Source of the DNA: Sedimentisphaerales bacterium
GTDB lineage: Bacteria > Planctomycetota > Phycisphaerae > Sedimentisphaerales > SM23-30
Length of the DNA: 64,000 nt
Assembly: GCA_028281535.1 (NCBI GenBank)
Contig: JANQJS010000003.1
Location: 1 to 64,000, forward strand
Direction of reading: 5' to 3'
The notes under the pieces were generated by a model that did no database searches, was not told where the DNA came from, and was given only the letters and a program-made list of their open reading frames with translations. A program made the translations under genes and the position numbers. Below are positions 1,795 to 21,322 of this stretch, in pieces (within the stretch, counting starts at the first letter, position 1; each line of letters opens with the position of its first letter).

Positions 1795-3399
1795 CTATCG
1801 TGCATATTCAACGCAGCGTACTTCACGCAGCAGCGTTACTTTAACTTCGCCAGGATAGGTCAATTCATCCTGAACTTTTTGTGCAATATCTCGTGCTATT
1901 TTCCATGATGCCACATCATCCACTTCTTCAGGATCCACGATGACGCGAACTTCGCGTCCAGCCTGAATTGCATAAGCCTGTTTGGCACCTTTAAAGCTGG
2001 TCGCAATTTCTTCCAATGCTTCCAGGCGTTTGATATATCGTTCCATTGTCTCGCGGCGGGCACCAGGGCGTGAAGCGCTCATGGCATCAGCTGCCGCAAC
2101 CAATGTTGTGTAAACTGAAGTAATGGGGATATCACCATGGTGACCTGCGATGGCATTCAATACATCTTCAGAACGCTCACCGCTACGTTTGGCAATTTCC
2201 GCTCCAATAGCAGGGTGACCACCTTCTTCTTCGTGGTCTGCAGCTTTACCAATATCATGAAGCAATCCGCAGCGACGAGCCAGTTCGCTATCAAGTCCAA
2301 GTTCTTCTGCCATAGCTTGTGTTAGATAGGCGACTTCCACGCTATGTCGCAAGACGTTTTGGCCATAACTGGTTCGATAAGATAGTCGACCCAGGTAGGG
2401 CAGTAGTTTGTTACTGATACCCGCCAGGTTGGTTTCCAGGACAACTTTTTTACCGATATCGATTACTTGCTGATCCATTTCCTTGGTCGTTTCTTCGATC
2501 ACTTCTTCGATACGTGTCGGGTGAATACGACCATCCTGAATCAATTTGGATAAACTCTGGCGAGCAATTTCGCGACGTACGGGATCAAAGGCAGAAATCA
2601 CCACGACGCCAGGTGTGTCGTCAATAATGACATCCACGCCGGTGGCTTTTTCAAATGAGCGGATATTTCGTCCTTCGCGGCCAATCACGCGACCTTTCAT
2701 ATCATCGTTAGGGATATCAACCGTCGAAACCGTACCTTCACAGGTCTGGCTGGCGGCATATCGTTGCAAAGCATTGATGATTAAGTCTTTACTTTTCTTT
2801 TCAGCTTCTTCTTTGGCCTTGGTAACGTGTTTTTCAATAATAGAAGACGCTTCATGTTGAACATCGTCTTCCAGGCGTTCCAGAACCAGTGTTTTGGCTT
2901 CTTCTTGAGAGATATTCGCTTGCTTTAATAGCTGAGATTTTTGCTCAGCTAATACTTTATCCAGTTCTTGTTCTTTGTTAGAAAAGGATTTTTCGCGTTC
3001 GTTTAATTTATTTTGCTGCTGATCCAGTTTGCTTTGGCGGTCTTTATTGTTTTCAATCTGACGATCGAGGTTATTTTCTTTCTTGGCTAAATTGCGTTCC
3101 TGTTCCATCAGGTCGTCACGTTTCGCACTGAATTCTTTCTCTGCCTCGTCTTTAAGTTTCATGGCTTGGTCTTTTGCATCTAACTCCGCGGTTTTCATAA
3201 AATTATCCGCTTTGCTTTGTGCTTCAGAAAGAATTGTTTTAGATTGTTGCTCTGCCAACTGGATTTTAGAATTTCCCATGGCTTTGGTCGTGAAAAAGGT
3301 AACGATAACCCCTGCAATTAAACCGATAACGCCAACTAGAACAACGGTGGCTGACATCTCAGATAACATGATGCTATCCATTAATATGATGCTATCCAT
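1795..3399 (-). CDS. rny: Ribonuclease Y
   Basis: 534-residue membrane-anchored endoribonuclease that initiates mRNA decay. Domain order is canonical: one N-terminal membrane helix (about 17-38), a long charged coiled coil (about 45-215), a KH RNA-binding domain with [15 protein letters not shown] at 236-250, and an HD domain with [18 protein letters not shown] (H381-D382). A GGGAG Shine-Dalgarno lies about 8 nt upstream of the ATG at 3399. The beginning of the gene carries an 18-nt tandem duplication, so the protein starts [15 protein letters not shown] and in-frame ATGs at 3399, 3381 and 3357 could all serve. It is the first gene of the rny-ymdB-xseA operon. Identity is secure; only the exact start is open. 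Confidence 0.96.
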
Positions 3400-4250
3400 A
3401 TTTTTTAGCTCCCATCAATGCGATAAACGCACATAGTGCTTTGCAAGACATGTCAATATTTTGTGGATGAGAAAAGTTTAAATGACAGGAAATATATTAT
3501 AACGGTCGCATGTAAGAAAATACTAACGTTGTGTCCAGTTTAGGATTTAAAGCATCTCCGCTCGAATCAGCAAAGATAGCAATATACAAAAGAGATTTGT
3601 AAGTTTGCTTCGTCTATAGCTTTAAATTGTTGTCCTAAAAAACACATGATTTTACCAGTATTAACTAAACTTCCATTTTTAAGCTAATCTATCGAGTCGT
3701 TCAAAATAGTTGAATGGGATGGAATCGTCTTTTCGTAACCTTCAAAGCTCCAGCGATTTCTCAGGATAGTCTTGCAGATATGCTTGGTATCTCTGCTGTT
3801 TCCTTTGTCGCGTGCTATCAAAATCTATAATCGAATGGCCAAGTCAGCCATGTTATTGTCAGGTTAGAAGCGAAATCCCAATGATAGACAAACCTTTCAT
3901 TGATTTTTCCCTGAAAACTTTTGCAGGATCAAATAATAGAAATTTGTCTCCTTTCTGAAAAATGATCGTCTGCTACTCATTACTAAATACAGCACAAGTA
4001 CATGCAAAAAGATTTAATATAATTGTCAAAGTTAAATTCTAACGTAATTTTACGGTCTTAGTGTACGTGAATCAGGCCCCTCTGGTCAAGGAAAAAGGTG
4101 TCGAGAATTCCTCTAAGTTATGATGGTCTCTTAACTTGTGAAAATAGAGAATCAGTCTTGATTTCCCGTGAGCTAACCTTAATAATGAACAGATATTACG
4201 TGAATAGCGTAGAGTAAGGGTAGTATGACACTTTTGATGAGGGAATCATT
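3400..4250. other. 850-bp intergenic region with a possible gene remnant
   Basis: Region between divergently transcribed rny and the dsbD-like gene. No intact coding sequence is credible. It must contain both promoters; a plausible one for the plus-strand gene is TTGATT (4158-4163), 16-bp spacer, TAATAA (4180-4185). Around 3748-3822 a plus-strand frame reads through a peptide resembling a Crp-type helix-turn-helix before a stop (listed separately). Confidence 0.5.
3737..3840 (+). pseudogene. Possible fossil of a Crp/Fnr-type helix-turn-helix
   Basis: A short plus-strand frame reads APAISQDSLADMLGIS followed by AVSFVACYQNL and a stop. The first part matches the usual shape of the Crp/Fnr C-terminal recognition helix region (S-Q-E/D-x-L-A-x-M-L-G-I/V-S-x-x-S-V). 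No start, no effector domain and no downstream continuation are present in frame, so if it is related at all it is a decayed remnant. This rests on one short motif seen by eye. Confidence 0.25.
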
Positions 4251-6206
4251 TTGCTAAACTATTTTTATAAAAAAAGTTATGAATTTTCGGAATTTCGGTC
4301 GATTTTTATCCATAATAATATGCATTTTTTACGATTATTTGTCATTTTGGTCTCACTGCAGCTAGGCTCTGGCCAGCTATTTGGCCAGTTTAATTTGCCT
4401 GGTTTGCCCCAAAACCCTTCCCAGAAGAATCGGCCCCATGCTCAGGCGACGTTGGTTAGCCAATTTGACCAGGTTTCTCCCGGCCAGAGTTTTTTCCTGG
4501 CAGTCTTGATCGATATTGATCCTGGCTGGCATTTATACGCAAATCCAATTGGGGCTAATACGGATCTGATTCCCACTCAAGTTCAGGCGGCACCCGCTGA
4601 TGGCATAGAATTTGGCCAACCGATTTACCCGACGGGGACACCTTATGCCGACCAGTTTGTCAATGTCACAGTCAATGTCTACAAAGAGCATATGAAAATT
4701 TTTGTGCCCGTCAAAGTGACAGCCACTTCAGATGTCAAGATTCCGGTGGAATTACAATTAAGTGGCGTTCTTTGTGAGAAGTCTTGTATTCGCTGGGATG
4801 ATCTTGTACAAACAAGTATTGATGTTTCAACTGCCGGGGCGGGGCAAGAAAATCAACCTGAAATTTTTGCAAGTCTGGATATTCCAATTATAAGCAAGAA
4901 GCCAGAAACACAAAATACATCCACCATCACAATACCAACGATCGATGTCTCTGATATTGAGATTCCTGAATATGTTGCCATGGATTTCAAGGATGCAGGT
5001 ATTACCAGTGATGATTGGGTAAAACCACTACTGCTGGCATTATTGGCAGGTGCCATATTGAATTTAATGCCCTGCGTTTTGCCGGTTGTTCCATTAAAAG
5101 TATTGCAATTGATTCAGCAGGCACAAAAAGATGCTGCATCTGACGACAAATATAAAGCCGTGAAACTATCGATAGTCTTTAGTTTAGGAATTGTCGTTGT
5201 GTTCGCTGCTTTAGCGGTGGTCATGAGCAGCTTCAAATTGATTTATGGGCAGCAATTCCAAAGTTTGACCTTCAAGTTTGTCATGCTGATGATTGTTTAC
5301 CTTCTTACTCTATCAATGTTTGGCATCTTTGAAGTGATGCTGCCAAGTAAACTTAATAACATCCAAATTGTCAGGGAAGGCTATTTGGGTGCCTTTGGCA
5401 TGGGGGTCTTAGCAACGCTTCTAGCGACGCCTTGTAGTGCTCCATTGCTTGGGCCAGTGTTAGCCTGGTCATTAAGTAAAACCATGGGAATAACGGTGAT
5501 GGTCTTTTTGGTCATCGGTTTAGGTATGGCGGTGCCCTATGTTCTGCTAACGGCATTTCCTAAGTTGATGAATAAAATACCCAAAGCCGGTTCCTGGATG
5601 ATTCGTTTAAAACAGGGACTTGGTTTTGTAATGTTAGGTGTGTCTGGATTTTTGATTTTTCTCTTTCCAGGAGAATGGCAGTTTCCGCTAGTTATATTCT
5701 GTGTATGCTTGGCATTGGGACTTTGGCTGGCCATGCAAGTGGTTAATGCCGCCAGTCCGCCAAATAAACGTTTAGCAGGCCGATTGTGTGGCTTGCTAGT
5801 TGTTGTGTTAGGTGGCTGGTTTGTCTATAGTTCGGTCGATACCCAAATCACCCATTCAGGCAATAATTTTGAGTTAGCGAAACTAGTAGAACTGAATCAG
5901 CAGGGCGAGCATGTCATGGTTGAGTTTACAGCCAGCTGGTGTTTGAACTGTAAGGTGGTCGAGAAAACGGTTCTGGACCGTGATGAATTTAAATCAGAAC
6001 TTGATCGAAAAAATGTGACCTTGATGATAGCTGACATCTCTAATAATACCTACGAGTCCGCAGTGATCAATAAACTTCTCAAACAGTTAGGCTCGGAAAG
6101 CATTCCCTTCACCGCGATATTCCCCGGCGACAATCCCATGGAGCCAATTGTATTGCGAGACATCTATACTCTTGATACAATCCTTGAAGCGTTAAGTACC
6201 TTATAA
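4251..6206 (+). CDS. dsbD: DsbD-type thiol:disulfide interchange protein
   Basis: 651-residue inner-membrane protein that carries electrons from cytoplasmic thioredoxin to periplasmic thiol proteins. Order: signal peptide, N-terminal Ig-like DsbD-alpha domain with a Cys pair (LCEKSCIRW, about 172-177), an eight-helix transmembrane domain with the redox cysteines C275 (NLMPCVLPVVPLK) and C395 (TPCSAPLLGP), and a C-terminal thioredoxin domain with WCLNC (C564, C567) and a cis-Pro segment SIPFTA. All three cysteine pairs are present, so it should be functional. The TTG at 4251 follows a GAGGG ribosome site; an ATG at 4320 would give a more typical signal peptide (MHFLRLFVILVSL) but has no clear ribosome site. 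The DUF255 thioredoxin-fold protein at 61127 could be a client, by inference only. Confidence 0.93.
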   Translation: MLNYFYKKSYEFSEFRSIFIHNNMHFLRLFVILVSLQLGSGQLFGQFNLPGLPQNPSQKNRPHAQATLVSQFDQVSPGQSFFLAVLIDIDPGWHLYANPIGANTDLIPTQVQAAPADGIEFGQPIYPTGTPYADQFVNVTVNVYKEHMKIFVPVKVTATSDVKIPVELQLSGVLCEKSCIRWDDLVQTSIDVSTAGAGQENQPEIFASLDIPIISKKPETQNTSTITIPTIDVSDIEIPEYVAMDFKDAGITSDDWVKPLLLALLAGAILNLMPCVLPVVPLKVLQLIQQAQKDAASDDKYKAVKLSIVFSLGIVVVFAALAVVMSSFKLIYGQQFQSLTFKFVMLMIVYLLTLSMFGIFEVMLPSKLNNIQIVREGYLGAFGMGVLATLLATPCSAPLLGPVLAWSLSKTMGITVMVFLVIGLGMAVPYVLLTAFPKLMNKIPKAGSWMIRLKQGLGFVMLGVSGFLIFLFPGEWQFPLVIFCVCLALGLWLAMQVVNAASPPNKRLAGRLCGLLVVVLGGWFVYSSVDTQITHSGNNFELAKLVELNQQGEHVMVEFTASWCLNCKVVEKTVLDRDEFKSELDRKNVTLMIADISNNTYESAVINKLLKQLGSESIPFTAIFPGDNPMEPIVLRDIYTLDTILEALSTL

Positions 6207-6220
6207 TTTCAAAATATAAT

Positions 6221-6313
6221 GGTTGGCAGCCTTTACTTGATGATATCTCGTTGAGGATGGTGAATTTGTATCACCCCATCCCCAACTCAATAAATTGAAT
6301 TGAGGCTGCCACC
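6221..6313. repeat. Extragenic palindrome, TGGCAGC/GCTGCCA family
   Basis: Imperfect inverted repeat filling the gap between the dsbD-like gene and nth. The outer arms are GGTTGGCAGCC and GGCTGCCACC. Inner arms GTTGAGGATGGTG and CACCCCATCCCCAAC pair around a short loop. It shares outer tips and an inner GATGG/CCATC block with the element at 20281-20353, although the stem sequence between differs. Confidence 0.7.
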
Positions 6314-6323
6314 CTGTTAATTG

Positions 6324-7040
6324 ATGAGAATGGCCATGGCAAAGAAAAAATCACCTTCAAAGGCAGAAAGTTCCAAAGCATTTAAACCAACCGCAAGTGA
6401 TTTAAAAACAGCAGGGGAACGAGCTAAAAAAATCACCAAGCTTCTCTATAAGCATTACCCTGATGCCCATTGTGCGCTAAATTATAAAAACGCCTTGGAG
6501 TTAATGGTTGCAACCATTCTTTCCGCGCAATGTACCGATGAACGTGTGAACATTGTTACTAAGGATCTATTTAAAAAATATAAAAAAGCCAAAGATTATG
6601 CAGAAGCTCCCATTGAAGATTTAGAAGAAATGGTCCGTAGTACTGGTTTCTATCGCAATAAAGCCAAAAACATCCAGGCGGCTTGCGTGGATATTGTCGA
6701 AAAATATAAAGGCAAAGTTCCCAACAAGCTTGAAGAGCTCGTTGAACTCGCAGGCGTTGGTCGCAAAACCGCCAATGTCGTTCTAGGCAATGCTTATGAT
6801 GTACCTGGTGTGGTAACCGATACCCATGTCATTCGCTTATCCCGTTTGATGGGCTTATCTAAAAATACCGATCCGGTAAAACTCGAATTTGACCTGATGG
6901 AAATCATCGCCAAAAAAGATTGGGTGCAGTTCTGCCATATGATGATTTGGCATGGCCGAAAAATTTGCGTTGCCCGAAGACCTGATTGCGAGAATTGTCC
7001 CATCCAGCCCCATTGCTGTTATGGAGAAAAACATGGATGA
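6324..7040 (+). CDS. nth: Endonuclease III
   Basis: DNA glycosylase/AP lyase that removes oxidised pyrimidines in base-excision repair. The helix-hairpin-helix and catalytic region reads ELAGVGRKTANVVLGNAY then VVTDTHVIRLSRLMG, giving the catalytic Lys of GRKTA and the Asp of TDTH. The C-terminus has the full [4Fe-4S] loop with Cys spacing C-X6-C-X2-C-X5-C (CVARRPDC..CPIQPHC). A basic Ser/Lys/Ala leader of about 30 residues precedes the domain. Candidate starts are ATG at 6324, 6330 and 6336; none has a strong ribosome site. The stop overlaps the next gene's ATG by 8 bp, implying coupled translation with the signal-peptidase-like gene. Confidence 0.96.
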   Translation: MRMAMAKKKSPSKAESSKAFKPTASDLKTAGERAKKITKLLYKHYPDAHCALNYKNALELMVATILSAQCTDERVNIVTKDLFKKYKKAKDYAEAPIEDLEEMVRSTGFYRNKAKNIQAACVDIVEKYKGKVPNKLEELVELAGVGRKTANVVLGNAYDVPGVVTDTHVIRLSRLMGLSKNTDPVKLEFDLMEIIAKKDWVQFCHMMIWHGRKICVARRPDCENCPIQPHCCYGEKHG

Positions 7041-7983
7041 TTCTGTTGCTGAATCAATAGAATTAGAAAAGGCCGCAAAACCAAAATCCCCCTGGTTTGC
7101 AGTCGTTCTGGCATTTATGATTACAGGGTTGGGGCATTTTTATGCGAGACGGTTTAAAAGGGGGATTGGATTTATCGTCTTTGAATTCTTAGCTACTATT
7201 GCTATCTTTTGTATCATTAGTATACCTGATTTAAAATTTACAATGGGGTTAGTATCTTTAAGTTCAATAATATCTATTTTATATCTGGTTTGGTATTTAA
7301 GAGATACTTATAGTTGCACTAAGAGTTACAATGAGGTTAACCAACTAAAATATTCACGTTCTATAAAGAGGTTTTCTTTAAGTTTGATAGCTTTCATGGT
7401 CGTTCTGGGTATGAAATGCTTTTACATAACGCCTGGGCTCGCAGTAGCGTTATTTGTAAAACACAATTATCTTGAAGCTTTTCATATCCCGGATTTTAAT
7501 TACCCACAAAAATATTCTATTCTAAAACCTGAACCTTACGAAGGTGCTATGTTTCCTTGTATCAAACCTGATGATCGTCTTTTGGTCAATAAGATCGCTT
7601 ACCAGAATCAGATACCTGCTATGGGTGATTTGGTTGTTTTTAAATATCCTGTGAACCCGATAGATAGTTACGTTATGCGTGTGGTGGGTTTGCCTGGCCA
7701 AAAATTGGAAATCAAAGATCAACAAGTCTGGGTCGATGGGCAACCCTTAATAGAGCCTCCATTTGATACCATTCAATATGATTACACCCGCATTCATTAT
7801 GATATTAAATATGGAAAATCTGGCCAACGCTTTACCGTTCCCCCAAATCATTTATTTGTACTAGGCGATAACGCAGGCAAAAGTAATGATAGTACTGTGT
7901 GGGGTTTTTTACCTCTGGAAAATGTCACAGGCAAAGCCTTTAAAATCTATTGGCCGCCGGAACGATCTGGACCTCTTTATTAA
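7033..7983 (+). CDS. Signal peptidase I-like protein lacking catalytic Ser and Lys
   Basis: 316-residue S26-family homologue. An N-terminal multi-helix membrane region (about residues 18-150, with GLGHFYARRFKRGIGF resembling small TM2-type domains) precedes a signal-peptidase fold. Landmarks are clear: KPDDRLLVNKIAYQ, GDLVVFKYP, RVVGLPGQKLEI and the box E segment LGDNAGKSNDSTVWG. The catalytic Ser, normally Ser-Met, is Ala172 (YEGAMFPCI), and the general-base Lys, normally in YIKRVIGLPGD, is Met215 (YVMRVVGLPGQ). With both residues of the dyad gone it should be unable to cleave, so a binding, chaperone or regulatory role is likely; a true lepB is presumably elsewhere. The ATG at 7033 overlaps the nth stop, and an in-frame ATG at 7021 is possible. 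Confidence 0.85.
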   Translation: MDDSVAESIELEKAAKPKSPWFAVVLAFMITGLGHFYARRFKRGIGFIVFEFLATIAIFCIISIPDLKFTMGLVSLSSIISILYLVWYLRDTYSCTKSYNEVNQLKYSRSIKRFSLSLIAFMVVLGMKCFYITPGLAVALFVKHNYLEAFHIPDFNYPQKYSILKPEPYEGAMFPCIKPDDRLLVNKIAYQNQIPAMGDLVVFKYPVNPIDSYVMRVVGLPGQKLEIKDQQVWVDGQPLIEPPFDTIQYDYTRIHYDIKYGKSGQRFTVPPNHLFVLGDNAGKSNDSTVWGFLPLENVTGKAFKIYWPPERSGPLY

Positions 7984-8001
7984 TATTATTTCGGGTGTGT
8001 G

Positions 8002-8427
8002 ATGAAAAAAATCATTTTCATTTTAATTCTGATTCACATTTTCTTTTTGCTGATGGCCGCAACCAATTTCACCTTCTTTAATATGTTTAAAAGTATTGGA
8101 CGGTATCAGTGGACCTTTTTTAACATCAATTTTCATAGTGGCTGGGGCAAGGTTTATGTGAGTGCCTATTCCGTTCAGCAAATTGTCGCCTATCTTATCT
8201 CTTACGGATTAGGCGTCTATTTATTTAAAGTCTATTCACGAAAAAATTATTTTTTTACCGGGCTGACCGGTCGCATTCTTTGCGGACTGGGCTTTTTATC
8301 TTTTCTATTTGAAGCAACCCACTGGTTTGTCAATCATCAATTCTCAGTTATATTTTCCATTCCAGTCGGTGTAGGACTTTTATGGGTTTTAATCTTTCTG
8401 ATTCAATTCACTAAATTACGGCGATAA
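8002..8427 (+). CDS. Small integral membrane protein, unknown function
   Basis: 141-residue very hydrophobic protein with four predicted membrane helices (about 4-25, 55-78, 88-108, 115-136) and a basic end (TKLRR). No family is recognised. It begins 18 bp after the signal-peptidase-like gene, so the two are probably cotranscribed. A GTG at 7999 directly precedes the ATG at 8002; the ATG followed by MKKIIFILIL is the natural start. Association with the inactive signal-peptidase homologue is suggested by position only. Confidence 0.7.
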   Translation: MKKIIFILILIHIFFLLMAATNFTFFNMFKSIGRYQWTFFNINFHSGWGKVYVSAYSVQQIVAYLISYGLGVYLFKVYSRKNYFFTGLTGRILCGLGFLSFLFEATHWFVNHQFSVIFSIPVGVGLLWVLIFLIQFTKLRR

Positions 8428-8454
8428 GTCCCTTTTATTCCCAGGATCTCGACC

Positions 8455-8483
8455 TTGATTCATCGCCAGATTTAGGGTATAGT
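8455..8483 (+). promoter_or_regulatory. Sigma-70-type promoter for the first PQQ-propeller gene
   Basis: TTGATT (8455-8460), a 17-bp spacer and TATAGT (8478-8483), about 70 bp upstream of the ATG at 8553, which has its own AAAGGA ribosome site. Seen by eye against the consensus. Confidence 0.55.
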
Positions 8484-8552
8484 GGGGTCTCTACCCATCC
8501 ATAAAATAAAGTAATAAAAAATGACCCAAATGTGTGTTTGAAAGGATGACTG

Positions 8553-9836
8553 ATGACTCGATATCTTACCCCTGTTTTCCAAAGTAGCCTATTCATACTG
8601 CTCGTTTCAAGCCTGGCCCTCGCTGGTGATAGCTGGACCGATTATCGTGGTCCATCGCACAATGGGGTTAGTGATGCCAAAGGCGTTCCTGTTGAGTGGG
8701 GCGAAGAAAAAAATGTGAAATGGAAAACCAAAATCCATGGGCTCGGTTGGTCAACGCCTGTTATTTTAGATGGCCAAATCTGGTTTACCACTGCCGATGA
8801 AGAAGGTCACAAAATGCACGCAATTTGCGTTGATCAGGAAACAGGAAAAATCATCCATGACAAACTGGTCTTTGAAAACAAAGAACCCGAACCGTTGGGT
8901 AACGACTTAAATTGTTATGCATCACCTTCAGCCGTTCTGGAAAAGGGTCGCGTCTATGTTCACTTTGGTACCTATGGCACAGCTTGCCTGGATACCAAAA
9001 CCGCCGAGGTTCTCTGGCAACGCCGCGACATCAATTGCAGTCACTTTCGTGGTCCTGGTTCATCGCCCATTCTTTATGAAAACCTGATTATTCTCACACT
9101 CGACGGTATTGATAAACAATTCACAGAAGCCCTCGATAAAAAAACAGGTAAAACCGTCTGGCACACCAAACGCAGCACTGTCTTCGATGACTTGGACGAA
9201 AATGGTCAACCTGAAGCTGGTGGTGACATGCGTAAATCCTACAGTACACCACTCATCGGAAAAGTAAATGGCAAAGACCAAATGTTTATCGCCTCAGCCA
9301 TGGCCAGCTATGGCATGGACCCTAAAACGGGAAAAGAACTTTGGTTCATCAAACATAATGGATATTCGTTAGGAATGAGATCAAACTATTATAATGATCA
9401 TGTCTATTTGGGAACAGGCTATATGGAGCCCGAAATGTTTGTTGTCAAGCCGGATGGCAGTGGTGATGTCACCGAATCTAAAGTGGCCTGGAAACGTGAT
9501 AAACGTATTCCTATTCGCAGCACGCCCGTGATCGTTGACGATATGATTTTTATGGTCGAAGATGAAGGCGGTGTCGCAAGTTGCGTTTGTGCCAAGTCAG
9601 GTAAGATGTATTGGGGTAAACGTATCAAAGGTGATTATTCCGCATCACCTGTATACGTTGATGGCAAAGTCTATTTCTTTGATGAACGCGGCCGCTGCAC
9701 AGTCGTCGAAGCGTCCAAAGAATATAAAAAACTTGCCTACAATAAACTCGACGATGGCTTCATGGCCTCTGCTGCGGTTGTGGATAAAGCATTTTACTTA
9801 CGCACCAAAACGCATCTCTATCGCATTGAAGAATAA
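8553..9836 (+). CDS. Secreted PQQ-type beta-propeller (BamB-like) protein
   Basis: 427-residue protein with a signal peptide (cleavage near LALA-GDSW) followed by a beta-propeller of PQQ-like blades. Blade motifs such as TGKTVWHTKRS, DPKTGKELWFI and SGKMYWGKRIKGDYSASPV recur. The mature start SWTDYRGPSHNGVS, followed by VKWKTKIHGLGWSTPV, is the characteristic opening of a large planctomycete/verrucomicrobial family annotated as PQQ-binding-like or BamB-like. Catalytic dehydrogenase residues are not evident, so it is more likely a binding or scaffold propeller in the periplasm than an enzyme. A related but diverged copy lies at 12220. The start is supported by AAAGGA six bases upstream of the ATG. 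Confidence 0.85.
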   Translation: MTRYLTPVFQSSLFILLVSSLALAGDSWTDYRGPSHNGVSDAKGVPVEWGEEKNVKWKTKIHGLGWSTPVILDGQIWFTTADEEGHKMHAICVDQETGKIIHDKLVFENKEPEPLGNDLNCYASPSAVLEKGRVYVHFGTYGTACLDTKTAEVLWQRRDINCSHFRGPGSSPILYENLIILTLDGIDKQFTEALDKKTGKTVWHTKRSTVFDDLDENGQPEAGGDMRKSYSTPLIGKVNGKDQMFIASAMASYGMDPKTGKELWFIKHNGYSLGMRSNYYNDHVYLGTGYMEPEMFVVKPDGSGDVTESKVAWKRDKRIPIRSTPVIVDDMIFMVEDEGGVASCVCAKSGKMYWGKRIKGDYSASPVYVDGKVYFFDERGRCTVVEASKEYKKLAYNKLDDGFMASAAVVDKAFYLRTKTHLYRIEE

Positions 9837-9861
9837 CTAGATGTCGTTATTCAAGATTGCA

Positions 9862-9890
9862 TTGAATTAACAGGTTAGACTCGTTATAAT
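9862..9890 (+). promoter_or_regulatory. Strong sigma-70-type promoter for the PEP-CTERM gene
   Basis: TTGAAT (9862-9867), a 17-bp spacer and a perfect TATAAT (9885-9890). The implied ~60-nt leader contains a small hairpin (AACCTGCT...AAGCAGGT) directly before an AGGAGG ribosome site and the ATG at 9960. Confidence 0.75.
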
Positions 9891-9959
9891 AAGACCTCTT
9901 GGGTTAAAGGAAAATGTTATTTAAACCTGCTCGCCCAAGCAGGTAACAGGAGGTTTATA

Positions 9960-10502
9960 ATGAGGAAAATGCGCCTGGTAGGGCTACTCTGTCTGTTCGT
10001 ATGCCAAAATCATCTATTGGCAGTAACTGAATTCCAATTCGATGTAAATGGTTCACCTTGGGATGGGGTTTCTGGAGTCGAAGTTGATGATACCATCACT
10101 GTGAATGTCATTGATCCAGCGACGGTAGGGGGCTACGGTGGTTTTGGGAATTACACCGTTGAGATATCATTAGGTGATTTTGTCCCAGGATCTGGTGAGC
10201 TCCATCTACTACTATTAATTGTGCCTGGTGTTTTTGTAACGCCGGTTGACGATGGGTTTACTGCGATAATTACAGGGACATACTTTCCACAAAATCCTGT
10301 TGGTAGAATGGCTTGGTTTGATTTTACCGTTCCAGATGTTCCTAATGGCAGCCTTATCAATATTGAACAAATCGACGGTGCATGGAATAACGATTTTACC
10401 AGCCCAAGACCGCAAGCGGCCCTTCAAGTGATTCCCGAGCCGATGACCATGAGTCTGCTAGGCATTGGGGCTGTTGCTCTTTTAAAACGCCGAAGAACAT
10501 AG
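9960..10502 (+). CDS. PEP-CTERM sorted secreted protein
   Basis: 180-residue protein with an N-terminal signal peptide (MRKMRLVGLLCLFVCQNHLLA) and a C-terminal PEP-CTERM signal: IPEP, a hydrophobic helix (MSLLGIGAVALL) and a basic tail KRRRT. Such proteins are processed by an exosortase and delivered to the cell surface or extracellular matrix; no exosortase gene lies in this window. The middle is a beta-rich domain with a cohesin-like feel (DTITVNVIDPAT, FTVPDVPNGSLINIEQIDG), which is a tentative reading. It has its own promoter and terminator, so it is a single-gene transcript. Confidence 0.85.
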   Translation: MRKMRLVGLLCLFVCQNHLLAVTEFQFDVNGSPWDGVSGVEVDDTITVNVIDPATVGGYGGFGNYTVEISLGDFVPGSGELHLLLLIVPGVFVTPVDDGFTAIITGTYFPQNPVGRMAWFDFTVPDVPNGSLINIEQIDGAWNNDFTSPRPQAALQVIPEPMTMSLLGIGAVALLKRRRT

Positions 10503-10525
10503 AATTAATTCATATAGAGTATGTC

Positions 10526-10554
10526 AAAGCCAGGTCATAGTCCTGGCTTTTTTT
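10526..10554 (+). terminator. Rho-independent terminator
   Basis: Perfect 9-bp stem AAAGCCAGG / CCTGGCTTT with a 7-nt loop, followed by a T-run, 24 bp after the PEP-CTERM gene. Confidence 0.88.
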
Positions 10555-10656
10555 ATGCCCATTTCAATTTAGATTAAAGCTCTGCAAGCGACAATGACGA
10601 CGTAAGGGGTGAGATAGGTTATTAAATCATCATTGTCTAAGTTAGAGAGAGAATCA

Positions 10657-11367
10657 ATGTCTGCAAAACGCTTGCAGTCCATATCGCCAATTGTTTTAGG
10701 CCAAAAAAGTTTTGGATTCATTCTGTCATCAATATTGATCCTTGTTTGGCAATGTGCTCATGCCCAGGCGGCTGTTAGTCCTACAGGCAGTAATGAGAAT
10801 GATTTCTTTCGTCTTGAATGGGATTATGACCTGCAAAATGGTACAGGCCAATTCATCATGACATTAAAAGATCCTGATGATTATACACTGTATGCTGGTT
10901 TCATTGCATTTGGACTTTTTACTGAAGTTGAGCTGGACTCCCTTTTGGTAAATGGCCAGCCCGATAGCTTTGGTAATGTATCGCAGCCAGCACCAGGACT
11001 GTTTCGGTATTCATTTGATAATGATTTTCATACAAGACAACCTGTAATGCAATTTGATATAACTTTTCCTAAGAACAATGTTCAGCTCTTTGAGAGGCCA
11101 GGGGATTATTTTGCTCAAATAGAAATTCCTTTTGATGGACAAAATGTTCCTGATTATATCATAGATCAATTAGAATTTAGATATCATACAGGTCATGTTC
11201 CTACCCGAACGGTGATGTCCACAAAATTTCCCTCAACCATGAATATGGTATCCGTTCAAGCGATCCCTGAACCAACAACTGCTGTGACACTAGGGTTAGG
11301 TGCAATTGTAACAGCATCACTTTGTCGACGCCAAAAAAGAGAAATGACTAAGGACAAGGATAACTGA
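10657..11367 (+). CDS. PEP-CTERM protein, tandem paralogue A
   Basis: 236-residue secreted protein. The signal peptide is preceded by a long polar n-region (MSAKRLQSISPIVLGQKSFG) and ends near AHAQA-AVSPTG. The mature part is beta-rich (FRLEWDYDLQNGTGQFIMTL, DPDDYTLYAGF). The C-terminus is a PEP-CTERM signal, AIPEPTTAVTLGLGAIVTA then CRRQKR. It is clearly a duplicate of the next gene, sharing the QCAHAQA signal-peptide end, the LENGTG/LQNGTG and DPDD blocks and the AIPEPTT tail. The ATG at 10657 is preferred over an upstream in-frame TTG at 10633 because a purine-rich AGAGAGAG site precedes it. Function is unknown beyond surface delivery. Confidence 0.8.
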   Translation: MSAKRLQSISPIVLGQKSFGFILSSILILVWQCAHAQAAVSPTGSNENDFFRLEWDYDLQNGTGQFIMTLKDPDDYTLYAGFIAFGLFTEVELDSLLVNGQPDSFGNVSQPAPGLFRYSFDNDFHTRQPVMQFDITFPKNNVQLFERPGDYFAQIEIPFDGQNVPDYIIDQLEFRYHTGHVPTRTVMSTKFPSTMNMVSVQAIPEPTTAVTLGLGAIVTASLCRRQKREMTKDKDN

Positions 11368-11370
11368 TAT

Positions 11371-12087
11371 ATGAAATATAAATTGTCACCCATTCATTTG
11401 GGCCAAAGCACTAAAGGATTTTTATTCGCAGCATGTCTCATTTTCTTTTGGCAATGCGCCCATGCCCAAGCGACGGTTGACACTCAGGGCAGTAGTGAAA
11501 ATATGTTTTTCAAAGTCGAGTGGGAATTTGATTTGGAAAATGGAACAGGACTTTATCAATTCAGATTACAAGATCCTGATGATTTTAATATCTATGGCGG
11601 TAATTTTTACCTTCGCATACCATCCAATTTTATCAAAATTGAAACGATGACCATTGATGGTGTACCACAATTTGGTTTATCAGGTTTGTCTGCTGGATTA
11701 TCTGAACCAGCGATACCAGGCCAATATAAATATCCTGCAGCAATTAATCTAACGCAACCACTTGCTCAAATTGAAATTACTTTCCCAACAGAAAACGTTG
11801 GACTCTACGAAACAAGTATGACCTATACTGGGCACCCTATTATCGATTCAAATTGGCCAGTTTATCCGCAGGGAACGATCAGTGCTTTACAAGCCCTTGG
11901 AAGCCCTGGTTGGCCGGAGCAGGTATCAGGTATTACTCGAAAGGTTTGGGAGTTGCGAGGTAATTTAACCATGGATTTCGTAACCATTCAAGCGATCCCT
12001 GAACCAACAACCATAACAACATTAGGCTTAGGAGCGATCATTGCATCAACCCTAAGACGAAAAAATGATAAAAAAACCAAGATATAA
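11371..12087 (+). CDS. PEP-CTERM protein, tandem paralogue B
   Basis: 238-residue paralogue of the preceding gene, 3 bp downstream and certainly cotranscribed. Signal peptide MKYKLSPIHLGQSTKGFLF then FFWQCAHAQA, mature beta-rich domain (FFKVEWEFDLENGTGLYQF, DPDDFNIYGG) and a PEP-CTERM tail AIPEPTTITTLGLGAIIAST with basic end LRRKND. The two copies differ most in the central ~100 residues and agree in the first third and at the C-terminus, as expected for surface proteins diversifying after duplication. A clear terminator follows. Confidence 0.8.
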   Translation: MKYKLSPIHLGQSTKGFLFAACLIFFWQCAHAQATVDTQGSSENMFFKVEWEFDLENGTGLYQFRLQDPDDFNIYGGNFYLRIPSNFIKIETMTIDGVPQFGLSGLSAGLSEPAIPGQYKYPAAINLTQPLAQIEITFPTENVGLYETSMTYTGHPIIDSNWPVYPQGTISALQALGSPGWPEQVSGITRKVWELRGNLTMDFVTIQAIPEPTTITTLGLGAIIASTLRRKNDKKTKI

Positions 12088-16763: not shown

Positions 16764-18245
16764 ATGTCATTTGATTTTACTATTTTTAAATCGGATCATC
16801 TCGCTGAAGATTATGTCGAATGGCTGGTGAATGAACAGGCCATCGATCAATCAGTCCATTTTGAAAAGCTCTGGAGCTATTATCGTAACGAGATGGTGGG
16901 GTTGGACATAGAATCGACGTCAGATTTGCAAGAACCTTCTGCACGTCCATATCGACACCAGCAGGAATTTGGTTTACCCAGCCGAATTACCGGCGTGCGT
17001 TATAGCCATTATAGCGGCGTTAGTTTTCCACAGAAGGTTCCAGGCCTGCAACGAAAAGAAGTTGTAATCGAGAATGATATTGCCTGGCGGATAGATACAC
17101 TGGTGGACTTTCTCTTTGGAAAACCCATCTCGATTGTCAGCAAAGTAAAAGATGCCAGTCGAAAAGCGGAGATCGAATCTCTTTTGGAATGTTTATTTAA
17201 GCATAACGGATCAGGCGCATTTTTCCAACGCTTGGCGTTATTAGGGAGCATCTATGGTTTCGTTGATGTGATTCTCAGGTTTCCTGAATTTAATATAAGT
17301 CAACAGATTACAGCAAACCAATTCGTCAAAAATATTATATTAGAAACGATCGAAGCACCTCGCGCTTTACCTGTGCTTGATTCAACCTATTATGAAAAAA
17401 CACTTTTCTATATTCAACATTATTGGCAATCGCATAATTGCCTTCAGGATTGTCCAGATTTTATTAAATCGGTGAACCATAAAAATCTCCAGGTAAGCCG
17501 ACAGAAGCAAACGCAAAACGTAGAGATCCTCGGTCCAAACGCCTGGCAGCTTTATGAGAATGGACTATTAATAAAGCAGGGGAGTAACCCTTTGGGGCGC
17601 CTGCCCGTCGTGCATATACAAAACGCTCCCTTGCCAAATCGTTACGAAGGCGTCAGTGACGTTGAGCCACTGATTCCACTTCAGGATGAACTCAATACGC
17701 GTTTGAGTGATCGAGCCAGCCGAGTCACATTTCAAAGTTTTAAGATGTATCTGGGCAAAGGGATCGAAGGATTTGAAAATCGCAGTGTCGCACCAGGTCA
17801 AATGTGGAGCACAGAAAATCCAGACGCCAACATCGAAGAGTTTGGTGGCGACAATGGCAGTCCCAGTGAAGAAGCTCACCTGCGAAATATTCGTGAAGCG
17901 ATGGAAAAAACCAGTGGCGTCGGGTCCGTAGCCGCTGGAATTTTAACTGGCAAGGTCGGTAATCTAACTTCTGCCGTTGCGTTGCAAGTTACGCTTATGG
18001 GGTTGCTCAGTAAAACACAACGCAAGCGACGAGCGTATGGCAAAGGCATTGCTGATATCTGTGAATTAGTGTTGGATTATTTAAATATTACGGGGATCTT
18101 TCCAAATTCGCCAGAAGAACGAAACATCGAATTACGTTGGCCCAATCCATTGCCTGAAAATATCACTGAACAATTGGAGCAAGCCAACATGAAAAAACAA
18201 CTAGGCGTACCACAAGAACAAATACTAAACGAATTAGGTTATTAA
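16764..18245 (+). CDS. Phage portal protein (SPP1 gp6-like)
   Basis: 493-residue portal protein, the dodecameric ring at the capsid vertex through which DNA is packaged. It fits the SPP1 gp6-like family: an early segment (ENDIAWRIDTLVDFLFGKPI) with a low-identity wing/stem region, then PLIPLQDELNTRLSDRASRV, the alpha-helical KTSGVGSVAAGILTGKVGNL region and SAVALQVTLMGLLSKTQRKR, with a crown-like C-terminal segment (PLPENITEQLEQANMKKQLG). The length is normal, the frame is intact and a GGGAG ribosome site precedes the ATG. It heads a five-gene head module with no terminase upstream, which is unusual because portal genes normally follow terL directly. Confidence 0.87.
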   Translation: MSFDFTIFKSDHLAEDYVEWLVNEQAIDQSVHFEKLWSYYRNEMVGLDIESTSDLQEPSARPYRHQQEFGLPSRITGVRYSHYSGVSFPQKVPGLQRKEVVIENDIAWRIDTLVDFLFGKPISIVSKVKDASRKAEIESLLECLFKHNGSGAFFQRLALLGSIYGFVDVILRFPEFNISQQITANQFVKNIILETIEAPRALPVLDSTYYEKTLFYIQHYWQSHNCLQDCPDFIKSVNHKNLQVSRQKQTQNVEILGPNAWQLYENGLLIKQGSNPLGRLPVVHIQNAPLPNRYEGVSDVEPLIPLQDELNTRLSDRASRVTFQSFKMYLGKGIEGFENRSVAPGQMWSTENPDANIEEFGGDNGSPSEEAHLRNIREAMEKTSGVGSVAAGILTGKVGNLTSAVALQVTLMGLLSKTQRKRRAYGKGIADICELVLDYLNITGIFPNSPEERNIELRWPNPLPENITEQLEQANMKKQLGVPQEQILNELGY

Positions 18246-18257
18246 TTAAAAAATGAA

Positions 18258-18337
18258 GGTGCCATGCCCACACTTGTGTGGGCATGCGATAAGTGGTCGA
18301 AATGTAAAACATGCTCACGCAAGCGTGAAAATGGCAC
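18258..18337. repeat. Extragenic palindrome, GGTGCCAT/ATGGCACC family, full copy
   Basis: Outer ends GGTGCCAT and ATGGCAC enclose two successive hairpins: GCCCACAC-TT-GTGTGGGC and TGCTCACGC-AA-GCGTGA. It sits between the portal and scaffold genes. Related copies are at 18933-18961 (half) and 20178-20257 (full). Confidence 0.8.
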
Positions 18338-18378
18338 TAGAGAAGATTCAATCTACAAAAACGAATAGGAGAACAAAC

Positions 18379-18903
18379 ATGTCAGAAGAACTACGTCAAA
18401 ACGAAACACTCGAAACAACAGGTTCCGAGCAAGAACGCCTGGTCCCTGTTACTGAAGCGATCAAATATCGCAAGCGTGCCCAAACCGCAGAGCAGGAATT
18501 ATCGAGCCTTGAAAAATCCTTACAAGAGTCGAATGAAAAATTGCTGCAATCGCAACGCAAGTTGGAGTGTCTTCAATTTGAGCAGACGCTTAACGAACAA
18601 CTCAACCAGGCAGGTGCCACAGATTATCACGTCGTAAAATTATTAGCAAAAGAAAAATTACATTCCTCCAATTCGGAGCAACCAGATGTTTCCGAGATCA
18701 TTGAGCAAGTTCGCCAGGAGCGACCGCAATTGTTTGCTGATCAAACGATGAATAATGATGATTTACTTGCTAAGCCAACAGCAGGGATTCCACCGCAAGC
18801 AGCGAGCCGTGCATCTACGTTAATTCAATTGGCCAACAAAGCCGGCCGCAGCCGTAAAGATATGCAGGAATACCTGAAATTGCGACGTCAAATGTTTAAA
18901 TAA
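18379..18903 (+). CDS. Putative phage capsid scaffolding protein
   Basis: 174-residue hydrophilic protein placed between portal and capsid, the usual position of a scaffold. It has a polar N-terminus (MSEELRQNETLETTGSEQE), a coiled-coil region (about 25-75, with AEQELSSLEKSLQESNEKLL), a short globular part (NQAGATDYHVVKLLAKEKL) and a basic helix-rich C-terminus (GRSRKDMQEYLKLRRQMFK), the part that binds capsid protein in known scaffolds. The ATG at 18379 has an AGGAG site; the longer upstream frame only reads through the palindromic repeat. Assignment rests on position and composition, not on a recognised sequence family. Confidence 0.68.
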   Translation: MSEELRQNETLETTGSEQERLVPVTEAIKYRKRAQTAEQELSSLEKSLQESNEKLLQSQRKLECLQFEQTLNEQLNQAGATDYHVVKLLAKEKLHSSNSEQPDVSEIIEQVRQERPQLFADQTMNNDDLLAKPTAGIPPQAASRASTLIQLANKAGRSRKDMQEYLKLRRQMFK

Positions 18904-18932
18904 CTCATTTGTTATGAAACGATCTGTAAGTA

Positions 18933-18961
18933 CATGCTCACACAAGTGTGAGCATGGCACC
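18933..18961. repeat. Extragenic palindrome, half copy of the GGTGCCAT/ATGGCACC family
   Basis: CATGCTCACAC-AA-GTGTGAGCATG (18933-18956) is a perfect 11-bp stem, followed by GCACC. It corresponds to the right half of the element at 18258-18337 and lies between scaffold and capsid genes. Confidence 0.8.
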
Positions 18962-18995
18962 GAAGGATTATTATAAATATGAAAGGAGACTAACA

Positions 18996-20150
18996 ATGTC
19001 TTTTACAGGAAAAGCAACTTACTCAGCGGGCGCTAATTTACCGGAACTTGCCGAAGATGTATCCGATCTCATCGGAATCGTTTCGCCATCTGAAACGCCG
19101 TTATTAAATATTATTGGCGATTCACTTCATGAAGCGGTTAGTACTCGTCATGAGTGGGTCGAAGATTCGCTATTACCAAATAAAGATAAGATCAACGATA
19201 GTTCATTTATCGATCCATTGTCTGATACTGATATTGATGTTGCCAACGGAAATCATTTCCAAATTGGTGATCAAGTCCAAGTGGAAGGTGCAAGCGAACT
19301 CATGCTCGTGACAGCGGTTAACGGTAATACGTTGAATGTCGTTCGAGGTTACGCTGGAACGACGCCTGAAGCTTTGCTGGATCAAACATTTTTAAATATT
19401 TTAGGTAACGCAGCACTGGAAGGTGCCAGCAAGCCTCAGGTGCGATTTACCAATCGTCAGCGAAAATCCAATACGACGCAAATATTTACAGCCAGTGTTG
19501 AAGTGTCTGGCAGTGATTTAGCCTCTAGACAAATTGGACTGGCTGACGAAATGGATTATCAGAAGCAAATGCGTTTACGCGAATTGTTACGTGATTTGGA
19601 AAATAGCATGATCAATGGCGGACAACCTGTCAATTCGCCGCAAGGCAGCGATAGCGTCAGGCGAACCATGCGAGGAATTATTCCGCATTTGCAATCCAAT
19701 ATTTTCCATCCCAGTGATCCTGATTTTCCAGCAGGTGATAGCCTGGATGAAGAAAAACTAAGTTTTGTTCTTCGGAAAATTTGGGAATCAAGCAATGGCA
19801 ATATTGATTTAATTGTCGTTAATGGGTTTCAGAAACGAAAGATCAATGCGTTTATACAAACCAATCGAAGTTTCGATTCGAATGATCAAACGTTTATGGA
19901 TCAAGTGAGTCGCTACGAAAGTGATTTTGGCATGGCCAATGTCCTTGTTTCTCGCTGGGTGCCTCAAGATGCGGTTTTACTTCTGGATAGTTCACGTTTA
20001 TCCGTAATGCCAATGTCAGGCCGTCATTTCCATTTTAAATCATTGGCTTCAGGCGGTGATTATGAATGTGGTCAACTAATTGGCGAATACACACTGGAAC
20101 TGAAAAATGAACAAGCTCACGGCATCATCCGTGGCTTAACTACAGCGTAA
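18996..20150 (+). CDS. Major capsid protein, SU10-like (DUF5309-type)
   Basis: 384-residue HK97-fold capsid protein of the SU10 type. Landmarks: an N-terminal arm (EDVSDLIGIVSPSETPLLNI), an inserted beta domain (about 80-125, with FQIGDQVQVEGASELMLVTA and RGYAGTTPEALL), the spine-helix region (TASVEVSGSDLASRQIGLAD then YQKQMRLRELLRDLENSMIN), the RRTMRGIIPHL segment and an A-domain end (SRWVPQDAVLLLDSSRLSVM, GEYTLELKNEQAHGIIRGL). The ATG at 18996 has a consensus AAAGGAG site; the longer upstream frame overlaps a palindrome and is rejected. Intact frame and complete domain set suggest it can still fold. No prohead protease gene is adjacent, consistent with scaffold-driven assembly. Confidence 0.85.
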   Translation: MSFTGKATYSAGANLPELAEDVSDLIGIVSPSETPLLNIIGDSLHEAVSTRHEWVEDSLLPNKDKINDSSFIDPLSDTDIDVANGNHFQIGDQVQVEGASELMLVTAVNGNTLNVVRGYAGTTPEALLDQTFLNILGNAALEGASKPQVRFTNRQRKSNTTQIFTASVEVSGSDLASRQIGLADEMDYQKQMRLRELLRDLENSMINGGQPVNSPQGSDSVRRTMRGIIPHLQSNIFHPSDPDFPAGDSLDEEKLSFVLRKIWESSNGNIDLIVVNGFQKRKINAFIQTNRSFDSNDQTFMDQVSRYESDFGMANVLVSRWVPQDAVLLLDSSRLSVMPMSGRHFHFKSLASGGDYECGQLIGEYTLELKNEQAHGIIRGLTTA

Positions 20151-20177
20151 TTGTTTATTGATTAAAAATTGATACTT

Positions 20178-20257
20178 GGTGCCATACCTACTCGAGCGTG
20201 GGCATGCTCTAAACGACCGAGCATAAAGCATGCTCACATAAATGCGAGCATGGCACC
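20178..20257. repeat. Extragenic palindrome, GGTGCCAT/ATGGCACC family, full copy
   Basis: Starts GGTGCCATACC and ends GAGCATGGCACC, with internal arms CCTACTCGAGCGTGGG and GCTCACATAAATGCGAGC. It matches the element at 18258-18337 in layout and end sequence. It lies between capsid and connector genes, next to the second repeat family. Confidence 0.8.
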
Positions 20258-20280
20258 GGAACATTTTAGAAACAGTGGAG

Positions 20281-20353
20281 TGGCAGCGTCAAACAAAGTT
20301 TGGCGATGGCGTAATAGTAGAAACCATCGCCAAGCTAACGCTTGATGCTGCCA
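20281..20353. repeat. Extragenic palindrome, TGGCAGC/GCTGCCA family, full copy
   Basis: Outer arms TGGCAGCGTCAA and TTGATGCTGCCA; inner arms TTTGGCGATGG and CCATCGCCAAG. Complete copy of the half element at 16419-16450 and architectural relative of 6221-6313. Confidence 0.8.
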
Positions 20354-20380
20354 CCCAATTAATCATTGAAAGGAAAGATG

Positions 20381-21019
20381 ATGATTTTTTCAAAAGATAT
20401 TGATCTATTACCTTGGGAAACAGAAATTTTCAAAGACTTGGCATTTAATTCCCAAATATATATTTCAGGTAGTGACGCTGTAACCACAAATACGACATTA
20501 ACATCTGCGTCTGCTAATTTTATTAATGCACAAATAAAACCTGGTCATGTGATTCATTTAAGTAAAACTGACCAATCCATCAATGGCGTTTACGAGATTG
20601 TTTCGGTCGATTCCGCAACGCAATTAACAATTTCAGTTTTACGCTTAAATGACCAAAGCAGCTTAATTGAGCCACCAGCATCAGTAGCGATAAGTTACAA
20701 AATAATTTCATATGAACATCAAGCCTCCGAATGTGCGGAAAGTTTATTGCAATATTTTGGAATTAAATCGCAGGACACAGCAACCATTTTAAATCCAGGA
20801 ACCTTAAAACAAGCCAGCATTTTTAGCATTTTATCATCGCTATATTCGAGATTTGCCTCAGATCCCAAAGATCCAAACGGCTATTGGCGAAAGGCCAGCT
20901 ATTACCAACAGTTATTCAACACCGCTCGCGTCAAGGTACGAATAGAGATCGACCTCAACCAGAATGGTCAACCCGAAAAACATCTCCGAGGCGGCAGTGT
21001 AACACTCCAAAGGAAATAA
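20381..21019 (+). CDS. Putative phage head-tail connector/completion protein
   Basis: 212-residue protein directly after the capsid gene, the usual location of head-completion (adaptor) genes. It has an N-terminal helical start (MIFSKDIDLLPWETEIFKD), a beta-barrel-like insert (about 30-115, with IKPGHVIHLSKT and INGVYEIVSVDSATQLTISV, a motif style common in phage virion proteins) and a helical C-terminal part (QASIFSILSSLYSRFASDPK, YWRKASYYQQLFNTARVKVR) that resembles DNA-packaging adaptor proteins. ATGs at 20378 and 20381 are both possible; AAAGGA lies upstream. Function is inferred from position and general look. Confidence 0.6.
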   Translation: MIFSKDIDLLPWETEIFKDLAFNSQIYISGSDAVTTNTTLTSASANFINAQIKPGHVIHLSKTDQSINGVYEIVSVDSATQLTISVLRLNDQSSLIEPPASVAISYKIISYEHQASECAESLLQYFGIKSQDTATILNPGTLKQASIFSILSSLYSRFASDPKDPNGYWRKASYYQQLFNTARVKVRIEIDLNQNGQPEKHLRGGSVTLQRK

Positions 21020-21043
21020 ATTTTAAAAAGAAAGGAAAGAACC

Positions 21044-21322
21044 ATGATTACGAAACCAAAGGATTTTGATATGTCCTGGCGAATCAAACGTGAAATTACT
21101 ATCCCAACGATTGTCCAGTTACTATTCGTCATGGTGATGATCATCGCTGGCTGGATCAATTTGGAAAAAGATTTAACGCTGATTCAGCACGATTTGAATC
21201 GTCTCATTGCATCCAATAAGGAATTACACAAGACAATCAAATCGCTAACCAAGAAAGTCCAACATCAAGAATATCGATTATCGACTTTGGAGAAAGACCT
21301 TCGACAGTCATCCATCAATTAG
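21044..21322 (+). CDS. Small membrane protein with coiled coil, end of phage module
   Basis: 92-residue protein with one membrane helix (about 23-41, IVQLLFVMVMIIAGWI) and a C-terminal coiled coil (LIQHDLNRLIASNKELHKTI then HQEYRLSTLEKDL). In phages this composition is seen in holin-accessory or spanin-like proteins and in small virion membrane proteins. An AAAGGAAAGA site precedes the ATG, and the 24-bp gap to the connector gene suggests cotranscription. Its last 8 bp overlap the stop of the convergent lipoprotein gene. No lysozyme or endolysin is nearby, so a lysis role is unsupported. Confidence 0.6.
   Translation: MITKPKDFDMSWRIKREITIPTIVQLLFVMVMIIAGWINLEKDLTLIQHDLNRLIASNKELHKTIKSLTKKVQHQEYRLSTLEKDLRQSSIN

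Follow-up and report, generated by a model that had tools for sequence, protein, structure and literature searches.

The head block

The window, a stretch of 64,000 nucleotides from a Sedimentisphaerales bacterium, carries a compact block of five phage-type genes, listed in Table 1 together with the repeats in the gaps between them. As the preliminary description had stated, the head genes are intact and in place, with all five frames open and a GGAG-like ribosome site before each start. Specifically, the likely scaffold start (AGGAG...ATG) lies downstream of the listed ORF start, the capsid start is conserved, and 18379, 18996 and about 20378 are the probable true starts of scaffold, capsid and adaptor. 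The portal matches its own family profile at 1.4e-236 and the scaffold at 7e-55, and in relatives the scaffold always sits between portal and capsid. For portal and capsid, the Pfam matches at E up to 0.5 are exclusively PF05133 and PF17236, respectively.

Table 1. Genes and inverted repeats of the head block, in window coordinates
Feature	Position	Strand	Evidence and remarks
Portal protein (SPP1 gp6-like), 493 aa	16764..18245	+	Pfam SPP1_portal PF05133 3.8e-22; phrog_64 2.3e-32
Dispersed extragenic palindrome, portal/scaffold gap	18263..18286		Perfect 11-nt arms; further genome copies
Scaffold protein, ~174 aa from likely true start	18379..18903	+	PF06810 5e-6, below cut-off; ORF listed from 18253
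Dispersed extragenic palindrome, scaffold/capsid gap	18933..18956		Perfect 11-nt arms; further genome copies
SU10-type major capsid protein, 384 aa from conserved start MSFTGKATYSAG	18996..20150	+	PF17236 SU10_MCP 2.4e-82; phrog_1328 1.2e-75; ORF listed from 18948
Inverted repeat, capsid/connector gap	20297..20336		13-nt arms, 92% complementary
Portal-tail adaptor/connector, ~213 aa	20378..21019	+	Predicted structure; ORF listed from 20366
Small inner-membrane and coiled-coil protein, family F4	21044..21322	+	phrog_739 Rz-like spanin 5.6e-4 (weak)

Neither the adaptor nor the F4 membrane protein has a firm match in Pfam or PHROGs. The AlphaFold2 model of the adaptor (mean pLDDT 94) covers two known structures end to end, albeit with middling Z scores, namely the tail adaptor of SU10 (7z47_A, Z 6.7) and the VP1 portal-tail protein (8zkk_B, Z 6.6); a Foldseek search of the model against the PDB gave nothing under 0.001, and the Z scores of 6-9 from a second look are suggestive only. 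Family F4 occupies the equivalent position in most clusters of the order, and our guess from its sequence is that it may be an i-spanin-like protein.

No tRNA was found within the window and no phage gene among the neighbouring genes scanned around the block, and the base composition of both the head locus and the packaging locus described below matches that of nearby host genes. The claim that all other phage genes are out of reach holds for the window neighbours scanned; it fails for the terminase, which lies on another contig, and for relatives in which tail and fibre genes adjoin the block. A missing protease is uninformative for scaffold-type heads. Elsewhere in the window (9960-12087), three adjacent genes encode secreted proteins whose C-termini resemble sorting signals (PEP-CTERM-like by eye); two of the three proteins are mutually similar.

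A search for complementary arms bore out the palindromes that had been described in the portal/scaffold, scaffold/capsid and capsid/connector gaps. The palindrome motif is a dispersed repeat, because it occurs at seven genome sites at up to two mismatches, compared with none for a reversed control. A gene for a Y1_Tnp (RAYT-like) transposase, which may be related to these dispersed palindromes, lies directly upstream of the packaging operon of the same genome (L086, 3823-4260).

A packaging operon at a second locus

The block had been described as an orphan without terminase, which proved wrong at the level of the genome: the suggested search elsewhere on the chromosome found a terminase large subunit (TerL) gene at G000:C66:88927-90300, on a different contig from the head locus (G000:C2). 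This TerL matches phrog_2 (terminase large subunit) at 1.2e-22, and its neighbour matches phrog_2538 (terminase small subunit, TerS) at 8.1e-8. The operon comprises a sigma-like HTH protein, which is the candidate regulator, an ABC protein assigned by sequence and family clustering, a GNAT protein, a ParB-like protein, TerS and TerL. The first lead to TerL was a weak Terminase_6N signal (PF03237), and TerL_ATPase (PF03354) had no match in any of 40 relatives; the faint response of PF03237 to the divergent TerL made own-family profiles necessary.

The divergent TerL is present in all 26 good genomes of the order, the window's own included, with invariant Walker A/B and RuvC residues. Other families of the class have the same TerS/TerL operon, again at a locus of its own. 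In the phylum sample, TerL accompanies every order and class genome with any capsid match (61/61) and only one (G225) of the 23 tabulated class genomes without a capsid, an association with a Fisher probability of 2e-19 when shared ancestry is ignored and the capsid-less side is taken as those 23 genomes. The head and packaging halves are either on separate contigs or separated by kilobases to megabases.

Distribution and descent

Of 40 relatives, many of the compared genomes being incomplete, 33 carry the capsid gene, as do 24 of the 26 good genomes, with 57-72% identity to the window's across the order. It is single-copy per genome, one genome having two contig-end pieces. Of 394 sampled genomes of the phylum, 72 carry it, and the majority of these belong to the same class, with 55-63% identity; families f33, f57 and f61 of the phylum carry it at 47-49%, and the weakest few matches represent other phage-type capsids or chance.

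The head and packaging loci are under purifying selection and vertically inherited with host families. Specifically, host-family labels change 14 times on the capsid tree (minimum 13; shuffled mean 37) and 12 times on the TerL tree (minimum 12; shuffled mean 33), and none of 200 shuffles was as low in either case. The dN/dS ratios amount to 0.08-0.15 for the portal, 0.04-0.10 for the capsid, 0.08-0.22 for the adaptor and 0.09-0.17 for TerL; in within-genus pairs with unsaturated dS, the values are 0.10-0.15 for the portal and 0.06-0.10 for the capsid, the same as above for adaptor and TerL, and looser for the scaffold (0.10-0.34); between the window's capsid and its nearest relative, pN is 0.19 and pS 0.87. 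The comparison with related genomes and the dN/dS estimates that the preliminary description had proposed thereby yield order- and class-wide conservation with low dN/dS.

In single genomes the locus has come apart. The head locus has decayed at L215, L217 and L218, with TerL persisting in all three genomes; the capsid is truncated in G369 and G153; and in G034 the portal, scaffold, capsid and adaptor are gone and F4 and the lipoprotein F5 remain. A serine-recombinase element interrupts the capsid gene in G248 and G167 (L194, 4181-15658; L216, 9559-11451), and its insertion point, around codon 61-77 in members of two distinct families, marks a recurrent insertion site. The G248 element has a large serine recombinase together with a phage-capsid protein, an AAA protein and a DNA methylase; the G167 recombinase is assigned by sequence likeness only.

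Long and short clusters

The head locus comes in two forms. The short cluster consists of portal, scaffold, capsid, adaptor, the F4 membrane coil and the F5 lipoprotein, and the long cluster has F11, F6, F9, the beta-helix F13/F19, F12, F7, F8 and F10 inserted after the adaptor and before F4. This long-form module, with tail-hub, fibre and spanin-like genes beside the head block, is shared by several families of the class and by many of the close relatives sampled. F8 folds like baseplate and tail hubs of the gp27, Mu gp44 and VgrG type (best Z 19.1; Foldseek down to 1.5e-11), and in the long form its fold is kept at a dN/dS of about 0.16. F6, F7, F9, F10, F11 and F12 have no firm family match, the weak Sipho_tail match of F11 standing at 0.005; relatives of F6, F7, F8 and F9 are also found in a true prophage of G021, equipped with a portal-MuF, capsid and tape measure of its own.

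The tree calls for about five changes between the two forms, and the window's lineage and several others have lost the tail module. Neither the hub F8 nor F11 turned up in the window's genome or in other short-form genomes. The F5 lipoprotein was likewise not found in the window's genome, whose cluster is the most reduced among the intact ones. A search for the tape measure PF10145 gave no match in the window's genome and matches in 5 of 40 relatives, at loci apart from the head cluster. Tail genes adjoining the block in close relatives had been named in advance as an observation that would refute the proposal of retention for a cellular use; such genes do literally adjoin it. They do not imply a prophage, because the long clusters are equally vertical and lack an adjoining terminase or a recognised tape measure.

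Phage relatives and stray capsid copies

A lone full-length capsid gene of the cellular family is present in the IMG/VR phage contigs G422 (62 kb) and G423 (41 kb) and in contig G034:C27 (L219, 5970-7124; L220, 7023-8183; L040, 5229-6353). These copies adjoin replication, recombination or methylase genes, and the one in G423 is accompanied by a scaffold fragment. G423 also carries a portal, a capsid and a terminase of its own, and G422 a portal, a terminase and a probable capsid of its own. In the tree, the lone copies are scattered among cellular capsids, at 76%, 72% and 68% to the nearest, and they look like separate captures from hosts because they are placed at different points among the cellular ones. 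It is possible that a phage-borne copy acts as an anti-GTA decoy or hijack.

Two further IMG/VR phages, L224 (an 89 kb contig) and L225, encode a related TerL (2e-65 and 2e-56) and a capsid at 37% and 35% identity, with an additional weak scaffold match in L224 (related region 2775-11137). Unlike the cellular system, these are phage contigs, and L224 carries a large fibre-like protein. Phages of this kind are a candidate viral stock of the cellular system.

Interpretation

The data are best explained if the block serves head assembly in a gene-transfer-agent-like element that is ancient and has been passed on vertically within the class Phycisphaerae, a reading to which we assign a probability of roughly 70%. 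The portal/scaffold/capsid/adaptor locus and the separate TerS/TerL operon are kept together, track host families and are under purifying selection, and this co-retention of head and motor shows a shared selected function rather than gene transfer itself. Two suggestions of the preliminary description, a gene-transfer-agent head locus whose other genes lie elsewhere and a head kept for some cellular use, gain strong support from single-copy conservation across order and class, family-congruent trees, purifying selection and the terminase operon that is inherited along with the head from a second site.

The element probably makes virus-like particles that carry bacterial DNA between cells. In such a scheme, scaffold and capsid would build a procapsid on the portal, and TerS/TerL would pump cellular DNA into the head by headful or random packaging; the particle would be unlikely to transmit the second (TerS/TerL) locus as one unit. 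The adaptor would close the portal vertex, and F4, with F5 in relatives, may aid lysis-linked release of particles, a role as a spanin-like pair that draws on a weak match. Long-form relatives would also make a tail-hub/fibre tip for delivery. In the window's lineage the element is best read as reduced to head and packaging motor, and since this lineage is without the tail tip, it would produce tail-less DNA-filled heads or use an unrecognised delivery part.

This reduction also suits a different account, in which a domesticated DNA-packaging head serves a use other than transfer, at least in lineages without the tail module, for instance as tail-less particles released at lysis, in DNA storage or in phage interference. 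Short-form genomes, the window's included, do keep head and terminase without hub and F11, and the form has changed repeatedly on the tree; the presence of the long form in several class families and many close relatives, with the hub constrained and its fold kept, weighs against this account, which we consider rather unlikely. The origin of the genes in phages and the missing tail-type genes of the window's genome could further suggest a recently eroded prophage whose head genes survive by chance. A prophage remnant would show sporadic distribution and relaxed selection, neither of which was found; the depth across order and class, the single copy, the family-congruent trees, the purifying selection and the second, conserved terminase locus contradict this proposal of the preliminary description and leave it scarcely tenable. 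A phage or satellite that is still active, its genome split in two, would fit the co-occurrence of related capsid and TerL in L224 and L225, but their capsids are only distantly similar, the cellular stretches examined held no recognisable excision genes, and head and packaging genes are far apart or on different contigs, so that this explanation, too, is very improbable. An encapsulin-type compartment was rejected, being at odds with the presence of a dedicated portal and terminase.

Beyond the gene-transfer-agent-like reading itself, a bolder proposal is put forward tentatively, at somewhat less than even odds: the class may harbour an independently domesticated Planctomycetota GTA lineage that repeatedly sheds its tail tip until only the DNA-packaging head is left, and phages infecting these hosts may counter this lineage or turn it to their own use through a stray capsid copy beside recombination or replication genes. 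A class-wide, apparently old planctomycete system of another capsid and portal type would constitute an independent domestication and offer a new opportunity to test why particles of this kind are retained by bacteria. Additionally, the repeated loss of the tail with head and motor kept, and the capture of capsids by phages, make both the benefit and the conflict with phages testable in cultured relatives. No prior report of planctomycete or Phycisphaerae gene transfer agents was found in the literature searched, from which preprints and most subscription papers fell outside, and priority is not proven.

Comparison with known systems

Gene transfer agents (GTAs) are defined by caudoviricete-derived proteins that form caudovirion-like particles, by a fully endogenised genome, often over multiple loci, by mostly vertical inheritance and co-diversification with hosts, by encapsidation of mostly random host DNA, by incomplete packaging of their own genome and by delivery of DNA to other cells; as of 2022, they had been shown experimentally in alphaproteobacteria, one sulfate reducer, one methanogen and one spirochete (PMC9662315). 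The proteins of the head and packaging loci described here are caudoviricete-derived. Two of the six features are found: the genes are endogenised over a head locus and a packaging operon, with the same split across the class, and capsid and TerL trees follow host families, the capsid being single-copy. Full packaging of the element's own genome appears implausible because the loci lie far apart in most genomes. The system is accordingly filed as GTA-like and not as a proven GTA.

Like phage SU10 and P22-like podoviruses, the block has a capsid of family PF17236 and an adaptor that resembles the SU10 tail adaptor; unlike them, it has an SPP1-family portal and stands in a locus without a complete phage genome. 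Among the matches listed, the capsids of named phages are less than 30% identical to the window's. The agent RcGTA has an HK97-type capsid and portal, and the HK97-type pair of RcGTA-like GTAs is not what this block encodes, which combines an SU10-type capsid with an SPP1-type portal. The system further differs from RcGTA in its phylum, in a terminase housed in a separate operon with ABC, GNAT and ParB-like genes, and in that no tail tube or tape measure is recognised. What it shares with RcGTA and the Rhodogtaviriformidae is the arrangement as a whole: phage-derived head and packaging genes that are chromosomally fixed, inherited with the host and spread over several loci.
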